Below are positions 1,864 through 31,888 of a DNA stretch of 37,523 bases, piece after piece. Positions within the stretch are counted from its first letter, which is position 1. Every line of letters starts with the position of its first letter. This stretch comes from Nitrospinota bacterium (GTDB taxonomy: Bacteria > JADFOP01 > DATKYB01): the NCBI GenBank assembly GCA_035528715.1, contig DATKYB010000044.1, positions 1 to 37,523 of the forward strand. Reading direction: 5' to 3'. Below the pieces are notes generated by a model. It was not told the origin of the DNA. It searched no databases and saw nothing but the letters and a program-made list of their open reading frames with translations. The translations under genes were made by a program, and so were the position numbers.

Positions 1864-2004
1864 ATTCAACTCTCTCTTTATAATCCTTCATAATCCTTCC
1901 TTTAAAATCACTATTAGCCAGTTAATTAAAAAACCCCTTTTTGTTTTTTCGTAAGCAGAGGGGAGGTGTTCCGGTTTTATATATAACAGTTCTCCCCCCA
2001 ACCT

Positions 2005-2188
2005 TTGATAATCCAGATGAGTTTTTAGTTTGTTTTCCTGCTATTTTTCCTTGACAGTTATATACTTCAGGTCTAATCTGAAAAACCTATCTTCTCGGTT
2101 CTGCATCTTTTGATTAACTGTTACCCTTTGGGAGGGGGTAAAGATGCAAGGCCATACTCTTCTTGCCAGACTATTTCCTCAAGAAACC
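2005..2188 (+). promoter_or_regulatory. promoter-leader module, copy A
   Basis: Begins TTGATAATCCAGATGAG, then TTGACA (2051-2056), a 17-bp spacer and TAATCT (2074-2079), a good sigma-70 promoter. The transcript would start near 2086 and fold a hairpin with outer stem GCATCTTT/AAAGATGC (2103-2110/2140-2147) and inner stem ACCC/GGGT (2123-2126/2136-2139). A conserved tail CAGACTATTTCCTCAAGAAA follows. Copies B, C and D of the module occur at 2928, 3984 and 4974. The next reading frame starts at 2257. Confidence 0.7.
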
Positions 2189-2256
2189 TTCGCCCTCACT
2201 AATCTGTATTTTCTTTCTAATCTTCTTACAGTAATAAATTATAAAAGGGGAATGCT

Positions 2257-2346
2257 ATGAAAAGGTTTGTAATTATCTTAATAGTATTGGTCTTTTTAAT
2301 CGTCATTGTTGGTCTAATCAGAGCAGAAGTAGGCTGGCTTGGGTAG
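2257..2346 (+). CDS. single-TM micropeptide (29 aa), possibly interrupted gene
   Basis: ATG with an AAAAGGGG ribosome-binding site 6 nt upstream. It encodes a short basic start (MKR) and one hydrophobic helix (FVIILIVLVFLIVIVGL), then RAEVGWLG and TAG (2344-2346). The same frame stays open after the TAG for another 36 codons, to TAA at 2455, ending KANPKRR. The original product may therefore have been about 66 residues, cut by a nonsense mutation, or the short form may be the real product. It directly follows promoter-leader copy A. Confidence 0.45.
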   Translation: MKRFVIILIVLVFLIVIVGLIRAEVGWLG

Positions 2347-2461
2347 AATAAAACTTTAAACCCACGGAAACAAACCAAAGTATATAATTTTTGGTCTATC
2401 AAGGTTATTAGATTATTTTTCCACGATTACTACAAGGCAAACCCAAAGAGGAGATAAAAAA

Positions 2462-2797
2462 ATAGTATATCAAGAAACAGATAGGAATAGTAAAGAAGAA
2501 GAAGATGATGAAGTTGGTTTGTTTGATAGAGTCCCATTCTTGGTGGTATTCCCATTAGGTGTTGTATATTTTTTTGTATTGTTAAATTTTTCTTATTGGA
2601 TAATGTACGGCGCTTTGAACCCTTTTGACAACTATCTTGTTAGTTTAGTCTATCTTATACCTATTGTTTTCCTTTCTCCAGGATGGCTTATGTATCTATA
2701 TAATTGTAAAAACTGGATAGATTTTTTAAAATTTATAATTGTCTCGATTATAGCCTGTTTTGGTGTTAATTTTATGGCTCATTATTTAGGAAGATAG
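2462..2797 (+). CDS. small three-helix membrane protein, start codon uncertain
   Basis: The open frame encodes an acidic N-terminus (ETDRNSKEEEDDEVGL) and about three membrane helices (FLVVFPLGVVYFFVLL, LVSLVYLIPIVFL, FLKFIIVSIIACF). The only conventional in-frame start is TTG at 2519, which has no ribosome-binding site and would delete the acidic segment. A perfect AGGAG (2449-2453) instead stands 8 nt before ATA at 2462. The related junction at 5741-5768 has ATG in that place, so ATG to ATA mutation, or rare ATA initiation, is likely. Family not recognised. Confidence 0.55.
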   Translation: MVYQETDRNSKEEEDDEVGLFDRVPFLVVFPLGVVYFFVLLNFSYWIMYGALNPFDNYLVSLVYLIPIVFLSPGWLMYLYNCKNWIDFLKFIIVSIIACFGVNFMAHYLGR

Positions 2798-2927
2798 AAG
2801 ATAGTGGTCTCGGTCCTGGCGTTTAATAGACCAGAAAAGCCATTCCATTTTCATTCGGTATAATCCCTTTTTTATATCTCTATTCAAAAAGACAAAAATC
2901 CTCGCTTGTTTGTTAAATCCCTTTCCC

Positions 2928-3112
2928 TTGATAATCCAGATGAGTTCTAGTTGTAATTCCTGCTATTTTTCCTTGACAGTTATATACTTCAGGTCTAATC
3001 TGAATAACCTATCTTCCTGGTTCTGCATCTTGACAGCCACATTAAAACCTCTATTTGAGGGTAAAGATGCCAGACCATTACATTTCTTCCAGATTATTAC
3101 CTCAAGAAATCC
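2928..3112 (+). promoter_or_regulatory. promoter-leader module, copy B
   Basis: Close copy of module A: TTGACA (2973-2978), 17 bp, TAATCT (2996-3001), outer stem GCATCTT/AAGATGC (3025-3031/3064-3070), and a tail containing CCTCAAGAAAT. The inner stem differs in sequence but still pairs: CCTC/GAGG (3048-3051/3057-3060) replaces ACCC/GGGT of copies A and C, which favours selection on RNA structure. It drives the outer-membrane protein gene at 3162. Confidence 0.7.
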
Positions 3113-3161
3113 TCATTTGTCTATGTTCTATTAATTCAATTAAACATAAAAAGGTGAGATT

Positions 3162-3974
3162 ATGAAAAAATTGTTATTGTTAACAATACCTTTTCTTTTT
3201 TTATGGGTATCAAATAGTGTTGCAGAACCTTTGCCAAAACATATATGGGAATTTGGAACTGAAGTATCGCATATTAAATACGAAGAACCTGGGATAATGG
3301 AAGATAAGGGTATGATGTATGGGCTATCTGGTTCCTATACTTTTCACGATGGAATTATGTTTAACGGAGAAGCCAGACTTAGTTTTGGAGAGGTAGATTA
3401 TGAATCAGTAGAAACAGGGAGCATAGATAATATAGACGATTATATATTTGAGATTAGAGGAGTGTTAGGTTATGACTTTACTGTAGCAGAAACATCCTCC
3501 AGAACCTCTATCCTTTCCCCTTACATAGGATTTGGATACAGATATTTAAATGATGATTCAGGCGGCATGACTTCTACAACAGGTGCAAGAGGTTATGAAA
3601 GAGAGTCAAATTATTACTATAGTCCTTTAGGTTTATGGATAAACACCATTTATGAGAAATGGTCTTTTGGATTGATGCTTGAATATGACATTTTTTGGTA
3701 CGGATTACAGAAAAGTCACCTTAGTGATGCTGTTGCCGGTCTTAATGATGTCGAAAACGATCAAGATAGCGGTTATGGTTTGAGAGGTTCCATTAAAATC
3801 GTAAGAAAGTTTACGAAAAGAAGTTTAGTGATAGAACCTTTTATAAGATATTGGGATATTGAGAAATCAGATGAGTCACCAGTCACAACAACTTCTGGAT
3901 ATATTATTGGGCGTGGATGGGAACCAGAGAACGAATCGACAGAATTTGGTATTAAGATAGCTATAAGGTTTTAG
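3162..3974 (+). CDS. outer-membrane β-barrel protein
   Basis: 270 residues. A signal peptide (MKKLLLLTIPFLFLWVSNSVA, cleaved near residue 21) is followed by alternating amphipathic strands rich in Gly, Tyr and Trp, and the chain ends in FGIKIAIRF. A C-terminal aromatic residue is the usual β-barrel-assembly signal. Length and pattern suit an 8- to 10-strand barrel of the opacity-protein type. AAGGTG stands 6 nt before the ATG. Expression is probably set by promoter-leader copy B immediately upstream. Ligand and precise family unknown. Confidence 0.75.
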   Translation: MKKLLLLTIPFLFLWVSNSVAEPLPKHIWEFGTEVSHIKYEEPGIMEDKGMMYGLSGSYTFHDGIMFNGEARLSFGEVDYESVETGSIDNIDDYIFEIRGVLGYDFTVAETSSRTSILSPYIGFGYRYLNDDSGGMTSTTGARGYERESNYYYSPLGLWINTIYEKWSFGLMLEYDIFWYGLQKSHLSDAVAGLNDVENDQDSGYGLRGSIKIVRKFTKRSLVIEPFIRYWDIEKSDESPVTTTSGYIIGRGWEPENESTEFGIKIAIRF

Positions 3975-3983
3975 ATTATTTAT

Positions 3984-4062
3984 TCTGCATCTTTGATTCA
4001 CTATTACCCTTGGGAAGGGGGTAAAGATGCTAGACCGTAATATTTTTGTCAGATTGTTTCAT
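3984..4062 (+). repeat. leader hairpin module, copy C (no promoter part)
   Basis: Only the hairpin and tail of the module are present, starting 10 bp after the stop of the barrel gene: outer stem GCATCTTT/AAAGATGC (3987-3994/4023-4030), inner stem ACCC/GGGT (4006-4009/4019-4022), and tail GTCAGATTGTTTC. Because it lies between two same-strand genes it may act as a processing or attenuation element. Confidence 0.6.
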
Positions 4063-4170
4063 TTTCACATTCACACTGTAATTCTATTCGAAAGTTATCT
4101 GCAGAGAATTCTTAATTCTAATTAAAACTATTATCAATGTTTTTTTAATATTTTTACTAGGAGACAAAAT

Positions 4171-4944
4171 ATGCAGACTAGCCAAAATCTAGATTTAGAC
4201 AATATCGATGATTTCTTTTATCCACCCTCTATGCTCACTACAGGCGTTCTTGGAATTGTTGTAACGGCAATGGCAGGTGCATTGTTTTATTTTGTGTCAA
4301 TAAATATTGGTGGGGCTTCTGTAGTTTTAAGTCTTTTATTTGGATTGCGATTGTTTTTGAGTAGGCATATAAAAAAATATCCTCATTGGGGTAAAATTCT
4401 TTACTACCTAATAATTTCTCTACTTATATGCACTTCGGCAGCTGGATCAAATGCTCTTATGAGCAAAATTTATTTACCAAAAGCGCACGCAATAGAGATT
4501 GAAACAAAAAAACCCACTCATCTCATCATACAAAAAAAGCCCTTTTTCTATAATTGGACTGCAGAATCAAGACTATATACGAGAGCCAGCTGTAATGAGT
4601 TGAGGGGAATTCAATTAATGTTTAATATTAAAGAAGCTAAGAAAGATTTTTTTCAAAATATATTATCATTTTTTCACTTATTAGTTCCAGATTATAAAGT
4701 TCAAATAAAAATTGTTCCTAAAATATCTACGATTAATATTAACAAAGTTATTTTTTACTTGGATCCATTAACATTTGATGAGTTCGAGATAGTAAAAGAT
4801 TCAAAAGATAAATTCGAACTTAATTTGTTAGCTTGGAAATCTTTTGATTTGAAAGTAAAAGTAGTATTGGAATCTGGAGAATATTTTTTTCTTTTAGAAA
4901 GTATAATTCTAAAAAAAGTCCTTTATGTGAGAGAAAATAACTGA
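4171..4944 (+). CDS. membrane-anchored protein of unknown function
   Basis: 257 residues. The N-terminal third has about three hydrophobic helices (roughly 24-46, 48-62 and 74-92), after which the chain becomes soluble, with a β-rich C-terminal domain containing repeated short hydrophobic strands (VQIKIVPKIS, FDLKVKVVLES). This suggests a membrane anchor plus one extracytoplasmic or cytoplasmic domain. AGGAG stands 8 nt before the ATG. No family or catalytic motif is recognised. It follows leader copy C and is followed by copy D. Confidence 0.6.
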   Translation: MQTSQNLDLDNIDDFFYPPSMLTTGVLGIVVTAMAGALFYFVSINIGGASVVLSLLFGLRLFLSRHIKKYPHWGKILYYLIISLLICTSAAGSNALMSKIYLPKAHAIEIETKKPTHLIIQKKPFFYNWTAESRLYTRASCNELRGIQLMFNIKEAKKDFFQNILSFFHLLVPDYKVQIKIVPKISTININKVIFYLDPLTFDEFEIVKDSKDKFELNLLAWKSFDLKVKVVLESGEYFFLLESIILKKVLYVRENN

Positions 4945-4973
4945 TTCATGTTCACTCTGTAATTCCACTCCTG

Positions 4974-5055
4974 TTGATAATCCAGATGAGTTTTTGTTTG
5001 TGTTTTTACTGTTATGAACTACTTTTATTTCTAATCTTATGAAAAAACATATCTT
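4974..5055 (+). promoter_or_regulatory. promoter-leader module, copy D (degenerate)
   Basis: Starts with the same TTGATAATCCAGATGAG as copies A and B. The -10 TAATCT (5032-5037) and following GAAAAAACATATCTT are recognisable, but the -35 has decayed and the GCATCTT hairpin is absent; the next gene starts almost at once (5076). Confidence 0.5.
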
Positions 5056-5075
5056 AAAAAAGAGGAGAGATAAAG

Positions 5076-5612
5076 ATGTCTGATATTAGTGATACTGTGA
5101 AAAGTTTATATGAGAAGTTCCTCATGAGAGATTTGCTTTCATTTATAACACCTGGCTCAATTGTTGTTTTATCTATATATTTGCTTGGGTGGGGCTTGGA
5201 TATGATAAAAAGTTTTTTCGAGTCACTACCATTCTTACTATACATACCGATTTTTGGGTTTCTTTATATTGTAGGATTTGCAACTCAATATTTTGGAAGA
5301 CTTTTCAGACTAATTAGAATTCATAATCGTAATAATGAGAATGAGCATCTTAATGGATTAAGAAGGGTTTTGCAAAGAAGTAATAAAGAAATACAACAAC
5401 ATGAGAGATTTGTTGTTTTAAAGCAGATGTGTGGAAATAATGCTGTAGCGATATTAATCGCGGGATTTATTCTTGCCTTCAAATATCCTATTTGGTTTTT
5501 GGTCACATTTGGAGTAATTGTGTTTATTTGTTTAATTTTAGGACATTACCATAATCTACTACAACAGGAAATATGGGAAGATTTTGAAAATATACAAACT
5601 CAAGATAACTAA
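5076..5612 (+). CDS. membrane protein of unknown function (RDLLxFITPG type)
   Basis: 178 residues. A short cytoplasmic start (MSDISDTVKSLYEKFLMRDLLSFITPG) is followed by about four hydrophobic segments (around 27-42, 51-68, 122-136 and 140-156) and a central charged stretch (RNNENEHLNGLRRVLQRSNKE). The RDLL-F-x-x-PG entry into the first helix is a pattern I associate with uncharacterised small membrane proteins of accessory regions, but I cannot name the family. AGAGGAG precedes the ATG. It lies directly behind degenerate module D. Confidence 0.6.
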   Translation: MSDISDTVKSLYEKFLMRDLLSFITPGSIVVLSIYLLGWGLDMIKSFFESLPFLLYIPIFGFLYIVGFATQYFGRLFRLIRIHNRNNENEHLNGLRRVLQRSNKEIQQHERFVVLKQMCGNNAVAILIAGFILAFKYPIWFLVTFGVIVFICLILGHYHNLLQQEIWEDFENIQTQDN

Positions 5613-5765: not shown

Positions 5766-6830
5766 ATGGAAAAGATGAAGTTATATAACCCGAGCAACCT
5801 GGTACTTCCACCACTTAAAATTACCAAGAAAAAAGATAGAAAATTAATGGAAAAAAATCCAAAGGTTAAAAATTTCATTGGGTCAAATTTGTTGCTTAAT
5901 AAGAAATTTAATAAATTATTTTTAGAAATTTTAGTAAAAAGCAAAGAGATTGAAAAAAGAATAGAAGCCATGATTCAGAAACCAATTAAAAAAGAAAAAA
6001 TTTTTGATGATATATGGCGAGAAAATTGGGAGTTCGAAAGTAAGGTATATAGTTATCATTCGAAAGCATTAGATGAATTTTTTAAATCATCAGAGTATGA
6101 TGAAATTATGAAGAAAGAAAATGGAGAAGCAATAGAAGAAATAGAAAATGATAGAGTAAAAGAGATATTAAGGAAAGTACCCATAAAATTAATACAAGAA
6201 AGAAATAAGAAATTTTTAACGAAAATAAAAAAACTATCAAACCAAATTCAGAATGCATTATCGAAATTTGAAGAAAATAAAAATATAAATTTAGAAATAC
6301 TGACACCAGTTAATTTATTTTTTTGTGTAAAGTGCAATCGTATAGTATCCAGAAATCAATTTAGGAGAACTACGTGTGCATGTACTGAAAAGATAAAAAC
6401 AGTTAAACAAACAATACAAGAAACAATAACATATTTTGAAAAAGAACTTATTGATTTGATTCAGCAGAATTATTGGTTTGAACATGGAGTAGATTATTTG
6501 CTCAGAAAAAAGAATTTTGAAACATTATGTGGTTATCATGTGCTAGGTCATTCTGGCAACTTGCATGAGATAGACAATATAGCAGAATCAAAATCATTAA
6601 ATTTAAGGTTTTTCTGTGAATGTAAAACAACGGGAGTAGGCAGTAATGATATTTTTGTACTGGCGGGAAAAATGACTGATATCGGATGCACCAGAGGATA
6701 CTTTTTTACCTCAGAATCAAATTTTCCAAGACAAGTTTATCGATTGGCTAGATCAAGAAACATTTCTATTATAGAAAATGTCTTGGAAAAATCTGAATCT
6801 GATTTGCTAGAAGAAATAATAGAAGATTAA
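5766..6830 (+). CDS. zinc-finger Mrr-like restriction endonuclease
   Basis: 354 residues. The N-terminal half is Lys/Glu-rich and helical with no recognisable domain. Residues 187-206 form a probable zinc site (CVKC...CAC: C187, C190, C204, C206). The C-terminal domain (about 235-340) has the PD-(D/E)xK arrangement HEID (E268, D270) followed by ECK (E285, K287), then a segment FFTSESNFPRQVYRLARSRN typical of Mrr/type IV restriction folds. The likely role is cleavage of foreign or modified DNA, but no methyltransferase or helicase partner is adjacent, so it would act alone. AGGAGG stands 5 nt before the ATG; that site is embedded in the preceding decayed frame. Confidence 0.65.
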   Translation: MEKMKLYNPSNLVLPPLKITKKKDRKLMEKNPKVKNFIGSNLLLNKKFNKLFLEILVKSKEIEKRIEAMIQKPIKKEKIFDDIWRENWEFESKVYSYHSKALDEFFKSSEYDEIMKKENGEAIEEIENDRVKEILRKVPIKLIQERNKKFLTKIKKLSNQIQNALSKFEENKNINLEILTPVNLFFCVKCNRIVSRNQFRRTTCACTEKIKTVKQTIQETITYFEKELIDLIQQNYWFEHGVDYLLRKKNFETLCGYHVLGHSGNLHEIDNIAESKSLNLRFFCECKTTGVGSNDIFVLAGKMTDIGCTRGYFFTSESNFPRQVYRLARSRNISIIENVLEKSESDLLEEIIED

Positions 6831-24451: not shown

Positions 24452-24460
24452 GACAAAACT

Positions 24461-24577
24461 CTTATCTAGAGTGGCTGAGGGAAAGGCCCTAAGAAGCCAC
24501 AGCAACCGATCCTCTAAAAAGAGGATGTCCGGTGCTAATTCCTACAAGGTTATTACCTTGAAAGATGAGAAGATAAG
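24461..24577 (+). promoter_or_regulatory. SAM-I (S-box) riboswitch aptamer
   Basis: P1 pairs CTTATCT (24461-24467) with AGATAAG (24571-24577). The conserved core is present: AGAGTGGCTGAGGGA, GGCCC, AGCCACAGCAACC, then GGTGCTAATTCC and AAAGATGAG. In the family, SAM binding stabilises P1. Here the P1 3' side (ATGAGAAG, 24565-24572) can instead pair with CTTCTCAT (24595-24602), the left arm and loop of the terminator, so SAM should cause termination. It controls the thrC-like, sulfur-carrier and NIL genes, tying them to methionine rather than threonine supply. Confidence 0.93.
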
Positions 24578-31721: not shown

Positions 31722-31756
31722 AAAAAACCAACATCCGTGTTGGATGTTGGTTTTTT
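31722..31756 (-). terminator. terminator in the tup leader
   Basis: On the minus strand AACCAACATCC, loop AACAC, GGATGTTGGTT and a run of T. It directly follows the Moco-type aptamer and ends about 155 bp before tupA. It has matching A-rich and T-rich flanks, so it could work in both directions. Confidence 0.85.
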
Positions 31757-31761
31757 AAACC

Positions 31762-31857
31762 AGAATATGTCTCCTTTTCAAACACGGGAGGCATGGGAGT
31801 TTCCTTCCATACCCTACTGTCCCTTCCCCTTAGATTTTCAGAAAATCCTTAGGAAGA
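31762..31857 (-). promoter_or_regulatory. Moco/Tuco-family riboswitch controlling tupABC
   Basis: On the minus strand the leader has a CTTCC/GGAAG stem (31852-31856/31823-31827) enclosing a GATTTT-CTG-AAAATC hairpin, then ATGGAAGGAAACTCCCATGC and the block GCCTCCCGTGTTTG (31779-31792) followed by AAAAGGAGACAT. The order GAAGGAA...GCCTCCCGT...AAAGG.G.ACAT matches my memory of the E. coli moaA Moco leader. Moco-family RNAs are known upstream of molybdate and tungstate transporters. With the terminator just downstream it should shut off tup when cofactor is plentiful. Confidence 0.78.
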
Positions 31858-31888
31858 AAGGATCGGAGAATTTCAAAACTCTGATATC

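Follow-up and report, generated by a model that had tools for sequence, protein, structure and literature searches.

A stretch of Nitrospinota bacterium DNA of 37,523 nucleotides (nt) (contig DATKYB010000044.1 of GenBank assembly GCA_035528715.1, analyzed over its full length and referred to here as the window) carries a small RNA hairpin that recurs across the genome, with at least 12 copies, each located upstream of a gene and on the same strand. One arm of the hairpin contains the Shine-Dalgarno (SD) sequence and the ATG of a short leader open reading frame (ORF), and the helix that covers this ATG shows covariation among the copies. The hairpin is a real, repeated, genome-wide translation-start element of a kind that is already known; its unusual aspect is its multiplication before mostly unrelated envelope genes, which suggests common translational control of those genes. 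We consider it moderately probable that the element is a translation-control hairpin acting on a coupled leader ORF and that it has spread by duplication within one genome.

Copies of the hairpin within the genome

The window is one contig (C44) of a draft genome that spans 1.99 Mb in 152 contigs and is 97% complete. An initial annotation of its sequence described four copies of a promoter plus structured leader (sites A to D) in front of unrelated membrane protein genes, distributed over an accessory region. The sharing of blocks is confirmed, with the TTGATAATCCAGATGAGT block present at 2005, 2928, and 4974, but the four sites represent three kinds of thing and not four copies of one unit. 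Sites A and B, which are 81% identical across 187 nt, each consist of a block that we call Q, the TTGACA-N17-TAATCT promoter that the annotation had recognized in both, and the hairpin, in that order; only these two sites have both promoter and leader. Site C is a hairpin without a promoter of this type and begins 9 nt past the stop codon of the outer-membrane gene following B, and site D is a Q block plus the stretch preceding it, with neither the TTGACA promoter nor the hairpin. The features of this region are as follows.

2005..2043 (+), Q block of copy A (TTGATAATCCAGATGAGTTTTTAGTTTG...CCTG), which recurs at 2928, at 4974, elsewhere in the window, and on other contigs
2051..2079 (+), promoter P2 of copy A, TTGACA-N17-TAATCT, identified from sequence and conserved in copies B, C123, and C5
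2097..2153 (+), hairpin of copy A, predicted from fold, covariation, and SD strength to sequester the SD (GGGAGGGGG) and ATG
2144..2260 (+), leader ORF A, 38 codons (MQGHTLLARLFPQE...GML*), whose TGA overlaps the next ATG (ATGA)
2257..2346 (+), putative gene after A, encoding a 29-amino-acid peptide with a single membrane span predicted from sequence (MKRFVIILIVLVFLIVIVGLIRAEVGWLG)
2928..2965 (+), Q block of copy B, from sequence comparison
2973..3001 (+), promoter P2 of copy B, TTGACA-N17-TAATCT, identified from sequence
3019..3076 (+), hairpin of copy B, with the variant inner stem CCTC/GAGG as anti-SD/SD (z score of -2.6, covariation, and predicted fold)
3067..3165 (+), leader ORF B, 32 codons (MPDHYISSRLLPQE...VRL*), whose TGA overlaps the next ATG (ATGA)
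3162..3974 (+), probable outer-membrane beta-barrel protein of 270 amino acids (PF13505, E = 4e-6, just under the curated cutoff; signal peptide by eye)
3984..4034 (+), copy C of the hairpin, located in the interval that separates the genes following B and C, from sequence and predicted fold
4027..4125 (+), leader ORF C, 32 codons (MLDRNIFVRLFHFH...NSN*), whose stop codon lies 45 nt ahead of the next gene
4171..4944 (+), putative membrane protein of 257 amino acids with weak pYEATS similarity (PF20305, E = 3e-5, below the curated cutoff)
4922..5012 (+), site D, a Q block (4974-5012) plus the preceding stretch, homologous to C76:6106-6296

A BLAST search of the genome with copy A recovered seven further hairpins outside the window (E = 1e-42 to 1e-10), well in excess of chance, and covariance models added two divergent ones, giving 12 copies on seven contigs (A, B, C, C123, C5, C129a to C129d, C15, C27, and C134). 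Covariance model R2 returned exactly 12 strong matches (E = 4e-19 to 6e-10), with the next match at E = 2.4; since this model was built from the same 12 copies, the gap between the scores is informative and the scores themselves are not. The hairpin is therefore neither a local tandem duplication nor a regional feature, and segmental duplication alone, the outcome against which the annotation had set its proposal, is ruled out by copies that stand on seven contigs before unrelated genes. Likewise, confinement to an accessory region does not hold, as the copies are spread over seven contigs and those in the window lie chromosome-ward of the remnant of a tRNA-Phe attachment site at ~296-351.

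Among loci with unrelated genes, similarity in the BLAST map spans at most the region from the Q block or promoter to, in most cases, 30 to 60 nt past the hairpin ATG, indicating that what has been kept is the hairpin together with the start of the leader; the similarity of B to C129a and to C15 reaches ~90 and ~110 nt past the ATG, respectively. Gene and leader were duplicated together in three gene families (C129a/C15, C129b/C129d, and C129c/C27), and the loci have a mosaic makeup, with blocks combined differently at A/B, C/C5, and D/C76. The shared part differs by 10 to 30% in most pairs of copies, so the family is not a very recent burst.

The downstream genes are mostly unrelated across all 12 copies, as had been noted for those in the window, and their products are mainly outer-membrane barrels and inverse autotransporters. 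The products are as follows.

After A, a predicted 29-amino-acid membrane peptide
After B, a probable outer-membrane barrel
After C, a putative membrane protein
After C123, a secreted product resembling TRAP-binding proteins (by eye; no Pfam match)
After C5, a penicillin-binding protein with transglycosylase and transpeptidase domains
After C129a and C15, Legionella-OMP-like barrels
At C129b and C129d, paralogous inverse autotransporter barrels
At C129c and C27, barrels (C27 by its similarity to C129c)
After C134, a small zinc-ribbon-like protein (by eye)

Ten of the 12 products are plausibly exported or membrane bound, a count that omits the C134 product and also that of C5, because its N terminus is unclear. 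On contig C129 (6239-13400, L023), four outer-membrane genes stand in a row, each with its own promoter and hairpin copy, in the order Legionella-OMP-like, inverse autotransporter, barrel, and inverse autotransporter.

Outside this genome, searches of sets of 60 and 193 relatives gave nothing convincing, only scattered single matches at E = 8e-4 or worse, of which those inspected were unconvincing. The hairpin was not found in plasmids and phages or in the only two searchable genomes of the same class, which belong to another family. Exact-pattern scans, which require near-exact matches and could miss diverged relatives, yielded one chance match only in GTDB contigs and two near-identical phage matches in IMG/VR, both without the hairpin. 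The genomes searched include no close relative, and thus absence elsewhere says nothing about the age of the family.

Structure of the hairpin and its leader ORF

In all 12 copies, the 3' arm reads in the order SD, short spacer, and ATG (e.g., TTTGGGAGGGGGTAAAG-ATG in A, TTTGAGGGTAAAG-ATG in B, and CGAGAGGTTTTT-ATG in C134), an arrangement whose role in translation initiation the initial annotation had missed, and every copy has SD and start codon in one arm with a complementary partner, as expected of a hairpin that sequesters a start site. The SDs at the leader ATGs are comparable to or stronger than those of real gene starts: ranked among the 1,205 ATGs of the window, nine fall in the top 1% and three in the top 10%, and their pairing energies with the 16S rRNA end, computed assuming a canonical anti-SD, range from -6.1 to -15.0 kcal/mol (median for window gene starts, -7.3). 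The outer stem, GCATCTT/AAGATGC, which is present in A, B, and C as annotated, covers the ATG. The inner stem pairs an anti-SD with the SD, and the switch from ACCC/GGGT to CCTC/GAGG, which had been described as a compensatory change, is reinterpreted here as SD and anti-SD changing together.

Covariation extends beyond the first three hairpins. When all 12 copies are aligned, pairing at the nine outer positions holds in 98% of cells and 4 of the 9 show compensatory changes, a number reached in 0 of 500 shuffles, with the qualification that this alignment was also the source of the structure and that the count concerns the outer helix only, among paralogous copies of one genome. Controls in which the register was slid were only 29 to 47% paired. 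All three bases of the AUG are predicted to be paired (P >= 0.9) in 9 of the 12 copies, and their pairing is weaker in C123, C27, and C15.

From the hairpin ATG, a leader frame of 12 to 56 codons is open in ten copies (A, 38; B, 32; C, 32; C123, 56; C5, 27; C129a, 26; C129c, 37; C15, 12; C27, 31; C134, 39). In C129b and C129d, the hairpin ATG is itself the start, and hence the N terminus, of inverse-autotransporter-like proteins of 663 and 634 amino acids. In A and B (ATGA) and in C129c (ATGGTGA), the leader stop codon and the ATG of the following gene overlap; in two other copies, the stop codon lies 12 nt (C27) or 17 nt (C134) before that ATG. Overall, in 7 of the 12 copies frame 0 either is the gene itself or extends to 20 nt or less from it, compared with 1 of 12 for each of the other two frames.

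From this layout we infer leader translation, its coupling to the main gene, an opening factor, and coregulation of the loci. One arm of the hairpin would pair with the leader SD through the inner stem and with the start codon through the outer stem, so that the closed hairpin would keep ribosomes off the start of the leader ORF. A trans-acting factor, either a small RNA or an RNA-binding protein, might then open the hairpin and allow the leader to be translated; the unpaired, conserved TTGATTNANTATT bulge on the 5' side is a candidate docking site for such a factor. A ribosome that ends translation at the next start codon, or close to it, could reinitiate on the main gene or unfold its start, whereas the two outer-membrane genes C129b and C129d would use the gated start directly for protein. 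Duplication of the promoter plus hairpin, or of the hairpin alone, would have brought mostly envelope genes under the same gate.

Several observations weigh against this interpretation. Most of the main genes have an SD of their own, and the leader stops 45 to 175 nt before the gene in five copies; frame-0 coupling occurs at 4 of 9 independent loci, a marginal excess over the 2.0 expected when locus-specific spacers are shuffled (P = 0.07). The copies differ 215, 210, and 163 times at codon positions 1, 2, and 3, respectively, and this lack of a third-position excess indicates that the leader peptide sequence is not under amino acid selection. On the structural side, three of the four double changes stem from a single divergent copy, C134, whose minimum-energy fold pairs the same ATG with partners other than those of the aligned register, and the comparison is confined to paralogues from a single species. 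The minimum free energies (MFEs) of most copies are no better than those of dinucleotide shuffles (z, +1.5 to -5.6), with z scores below -1.5 only in B, C5, and C134; the structural case therefore rests on covariation and the position of SD and ATG, not on stability. On evidence that is suggestive, we take translational coupling of leader ORF and main gene to be likely.

The differences by codon position also led us to reject a conserved leader peptide, whether an attenuator or an arrest peptide, and because the peptide sequence is not conserved, the initiation region is taken as the probable functional part. A known riboswitch was rejected in the absence of any Rfam covariance-model match in 1900-5200 even at E values up to 5. 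The only Rfam matches in the window lie outside that interval: an S-adenosylmethionine (SAM) riboswitch at 24459-24571 (+), before what appears by eye to be a threonine-synthase-like gene, and a molybdenum cofactor (Moco)/tungsten riboswitch at 31755-31880 (-), before an apparent tungstate-type ABC transporter operon (also by eye). Two further structural candidates were dropped. A second hairpin after the first (CTTG...CAAG) seemed by eye to covary, but C and C5 lack it and the consensus fold does not include it. An anti-sequestrator formed by AGATG in the Q block and CATCT in the 5' arm fits some C129-type copies and C15 by eye, but C129d and C27 break the pairing and A and B have Q upstream of the promoter.

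Alternative explanations

The element could instead be a passive expression cassette, in which a promoter and strong SD or hairpin stabilize the mRNA or act as a ribosome landing pad and were spread by duplication without regulatory input. STAB-SD and ompA 5' hairpins are precedents for mRNA stabilization and landing pads, and such a cassette would fit the very strong SDs, which lie 95 to 243 nt ahead of the genes, the unremarkable folding energies, and the distance of several copies from their gene, too great for tight coupling. A landing pad, however, would have no need of compensatory changes by which the start codon stays covered, and copy C lies within an apparent operon without its own promoter; we regard this explanation as unlikely.

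Somewhat more doubtful is a CsrA regulon, in which CsrA binds a loop GGA beside the leader SD and represses the leader and, via coupling, the main gene. The genome encodes CsrA (C38:2149-2304, E = 1.8e-23), and GGGAGG or GGAAGG occurs in or beside the apical loop in 9 of the 12 hairpins. A GGA is also to be expected within any strong SD, though; B, C27, and C134 lack a loop GGA that should be common to all members, and most type-I loops (TTTGGGAGG) fail the ANGGA context of CsrA sites. The precedent for CsrA acting through a coupled leader ORF is Escherichia coli iraD (PMC5574718).

The short stems sequester both SD and ATG in multiple copies before different genes, and ROSE elements are RNA thermometers that occur in this manner, raising the question of whether heat melts the hairpin and frees the start. 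This is very improbable given that ATG pairing is predicted, by computation only, to be nearly flat from 25 to 60°C in most copies, that the targets are envelope proteins and not heat shock proteins, and that Rfam thermometer families gave no match. Least credible of all is a dispersed repeat, similar to miniature inverted-repeat transposable elements or repetitive extragenic palindromes, lying before genes by chance: the mosaic of blocks in varying combinations would fit, but all 12 copies are sense oriented before a gene start with SD and ATG kept, and inspection by eye showed neither terminal inverted repeats nor target duplications.

Surrounding features, known parallels, and implications

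The Q block (TTGATAATCCAGATGAGTTTTTGGTTTGGTTC) is a second shared leader motif, found also at 16376-16353 (-) in the window and at C76:6187, C67:21106, and C136:20178. At several sites it lies ~35 to 60 nt downstream of sigma70-type (TTGAC-N17-TAGAAA-type) promoters of hairpin-less genes, and one instance precedes a Hint/intein-like protein. The remnant at ~296-351 is the 3' part of a tRNA-Phe(GAA) without its 5' half. An intact tRNA-Phe(GAA) lies on contig C43 (L141 1474-1549), 0.6 kb from the contig end, followed by an apparent tyrosine integrase on the opposite strand (by eye), and the arrangement suggests a pair of attachment sites bounding an integrative element between C43 and C44. A ribosome-binding-site stretch (AACCCAAAGAGGAGATAAAAAAATAG) at 2434-2466 is nearly identical to one before an ATG at 5766, with ATA in place of the ATG, and the 92-amino-acid membrane ORF that follows may have a nonstandard start codon or be decayed. 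The 2-Mb genome encodes 24 PilZ domains, indicating heavy cyclic di-GMP signaling; two adjoin copy A (1086-1863) and one adjoins the C129 cluster, and with so many PilZ domains in the genome a cyclic di-GMP link drawn from the neighbors of two clusters is weak.

The nearest parallel for the layout is uPPE2-ppe2 of Mycobacterium tuberculosis, whose coupled leader ORF has its start closed by a B12 riboswitch (PMC11260477). Both systems have a leader start occluded by RNA structure, and AUGA stop/start overlaps are found in both; termination-reinitiation on the main gene operates in uPPE2-ppe2 (PMC11260477) and is proposed for the hairpin family. That leader is closed by a known aptamer, whereas our hairpin is small and Rfam recognized no aptamer in it. 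In E. coli iraD, CsrA represses a leader ORF and, via translational coupling, the main gene (PMC5574718). There, as proposed for the hairpin family, the initiation region of a short leader ORF is the control point; the leader stop overlaps the main start, as in A, B, and C129c, and structure hides an SD (PMC5574718). In contrast, iraD is a single locus in which CsrA blocks the leader SD, while the SD concealed by structure belongs to iraD itself (PMC5574718); in the family described here, the leader's own start is hidden and the hairpin is repeated 12 times.

Salmonella mgtQ, which invites comparison with copy C, is a small ORF with stem-loops between operon genes (mgtC-mgtB) that govern translation of the second gene, but it is described as acting via acidic residues (PMC8092293), whereas the leader peptide sequence of the hairpin family is not conserved. 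The TAACTGA repeats of Beggiatoaceae are reported to be similarly lineage-restricted intergenic repeats with a proposed role in a posttranscriptional network, although they are short direct repeats, unlike a hairpin with SD and ATG (PMC4679880).

A regulon of the hairpin-bearing genes is plausible. The fuller proposition, which we consider less likely than not, is a lineage-specific posttranscriptional regulon in which one signal-responsive hairpin, copied to at least 12 loci and forming a class of regulatory RNA, controls entry to a coupled leader ORF and thereby determines the repertoire of envelope and outer-membrane proteins. To our knowledge, hairpins at the start sites of coupled leader ORFs are known only from individual loci. 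If the proposed translational control is correct, a dozen-member family in a 2-Mb genome, standing before envelope genes that are mostly unrelated, would represent the building of a regulon by copying an RNA gate instead of a protein-binding site, and it predicts one trans-acting factor and a common response of the outer-membrane proteins.

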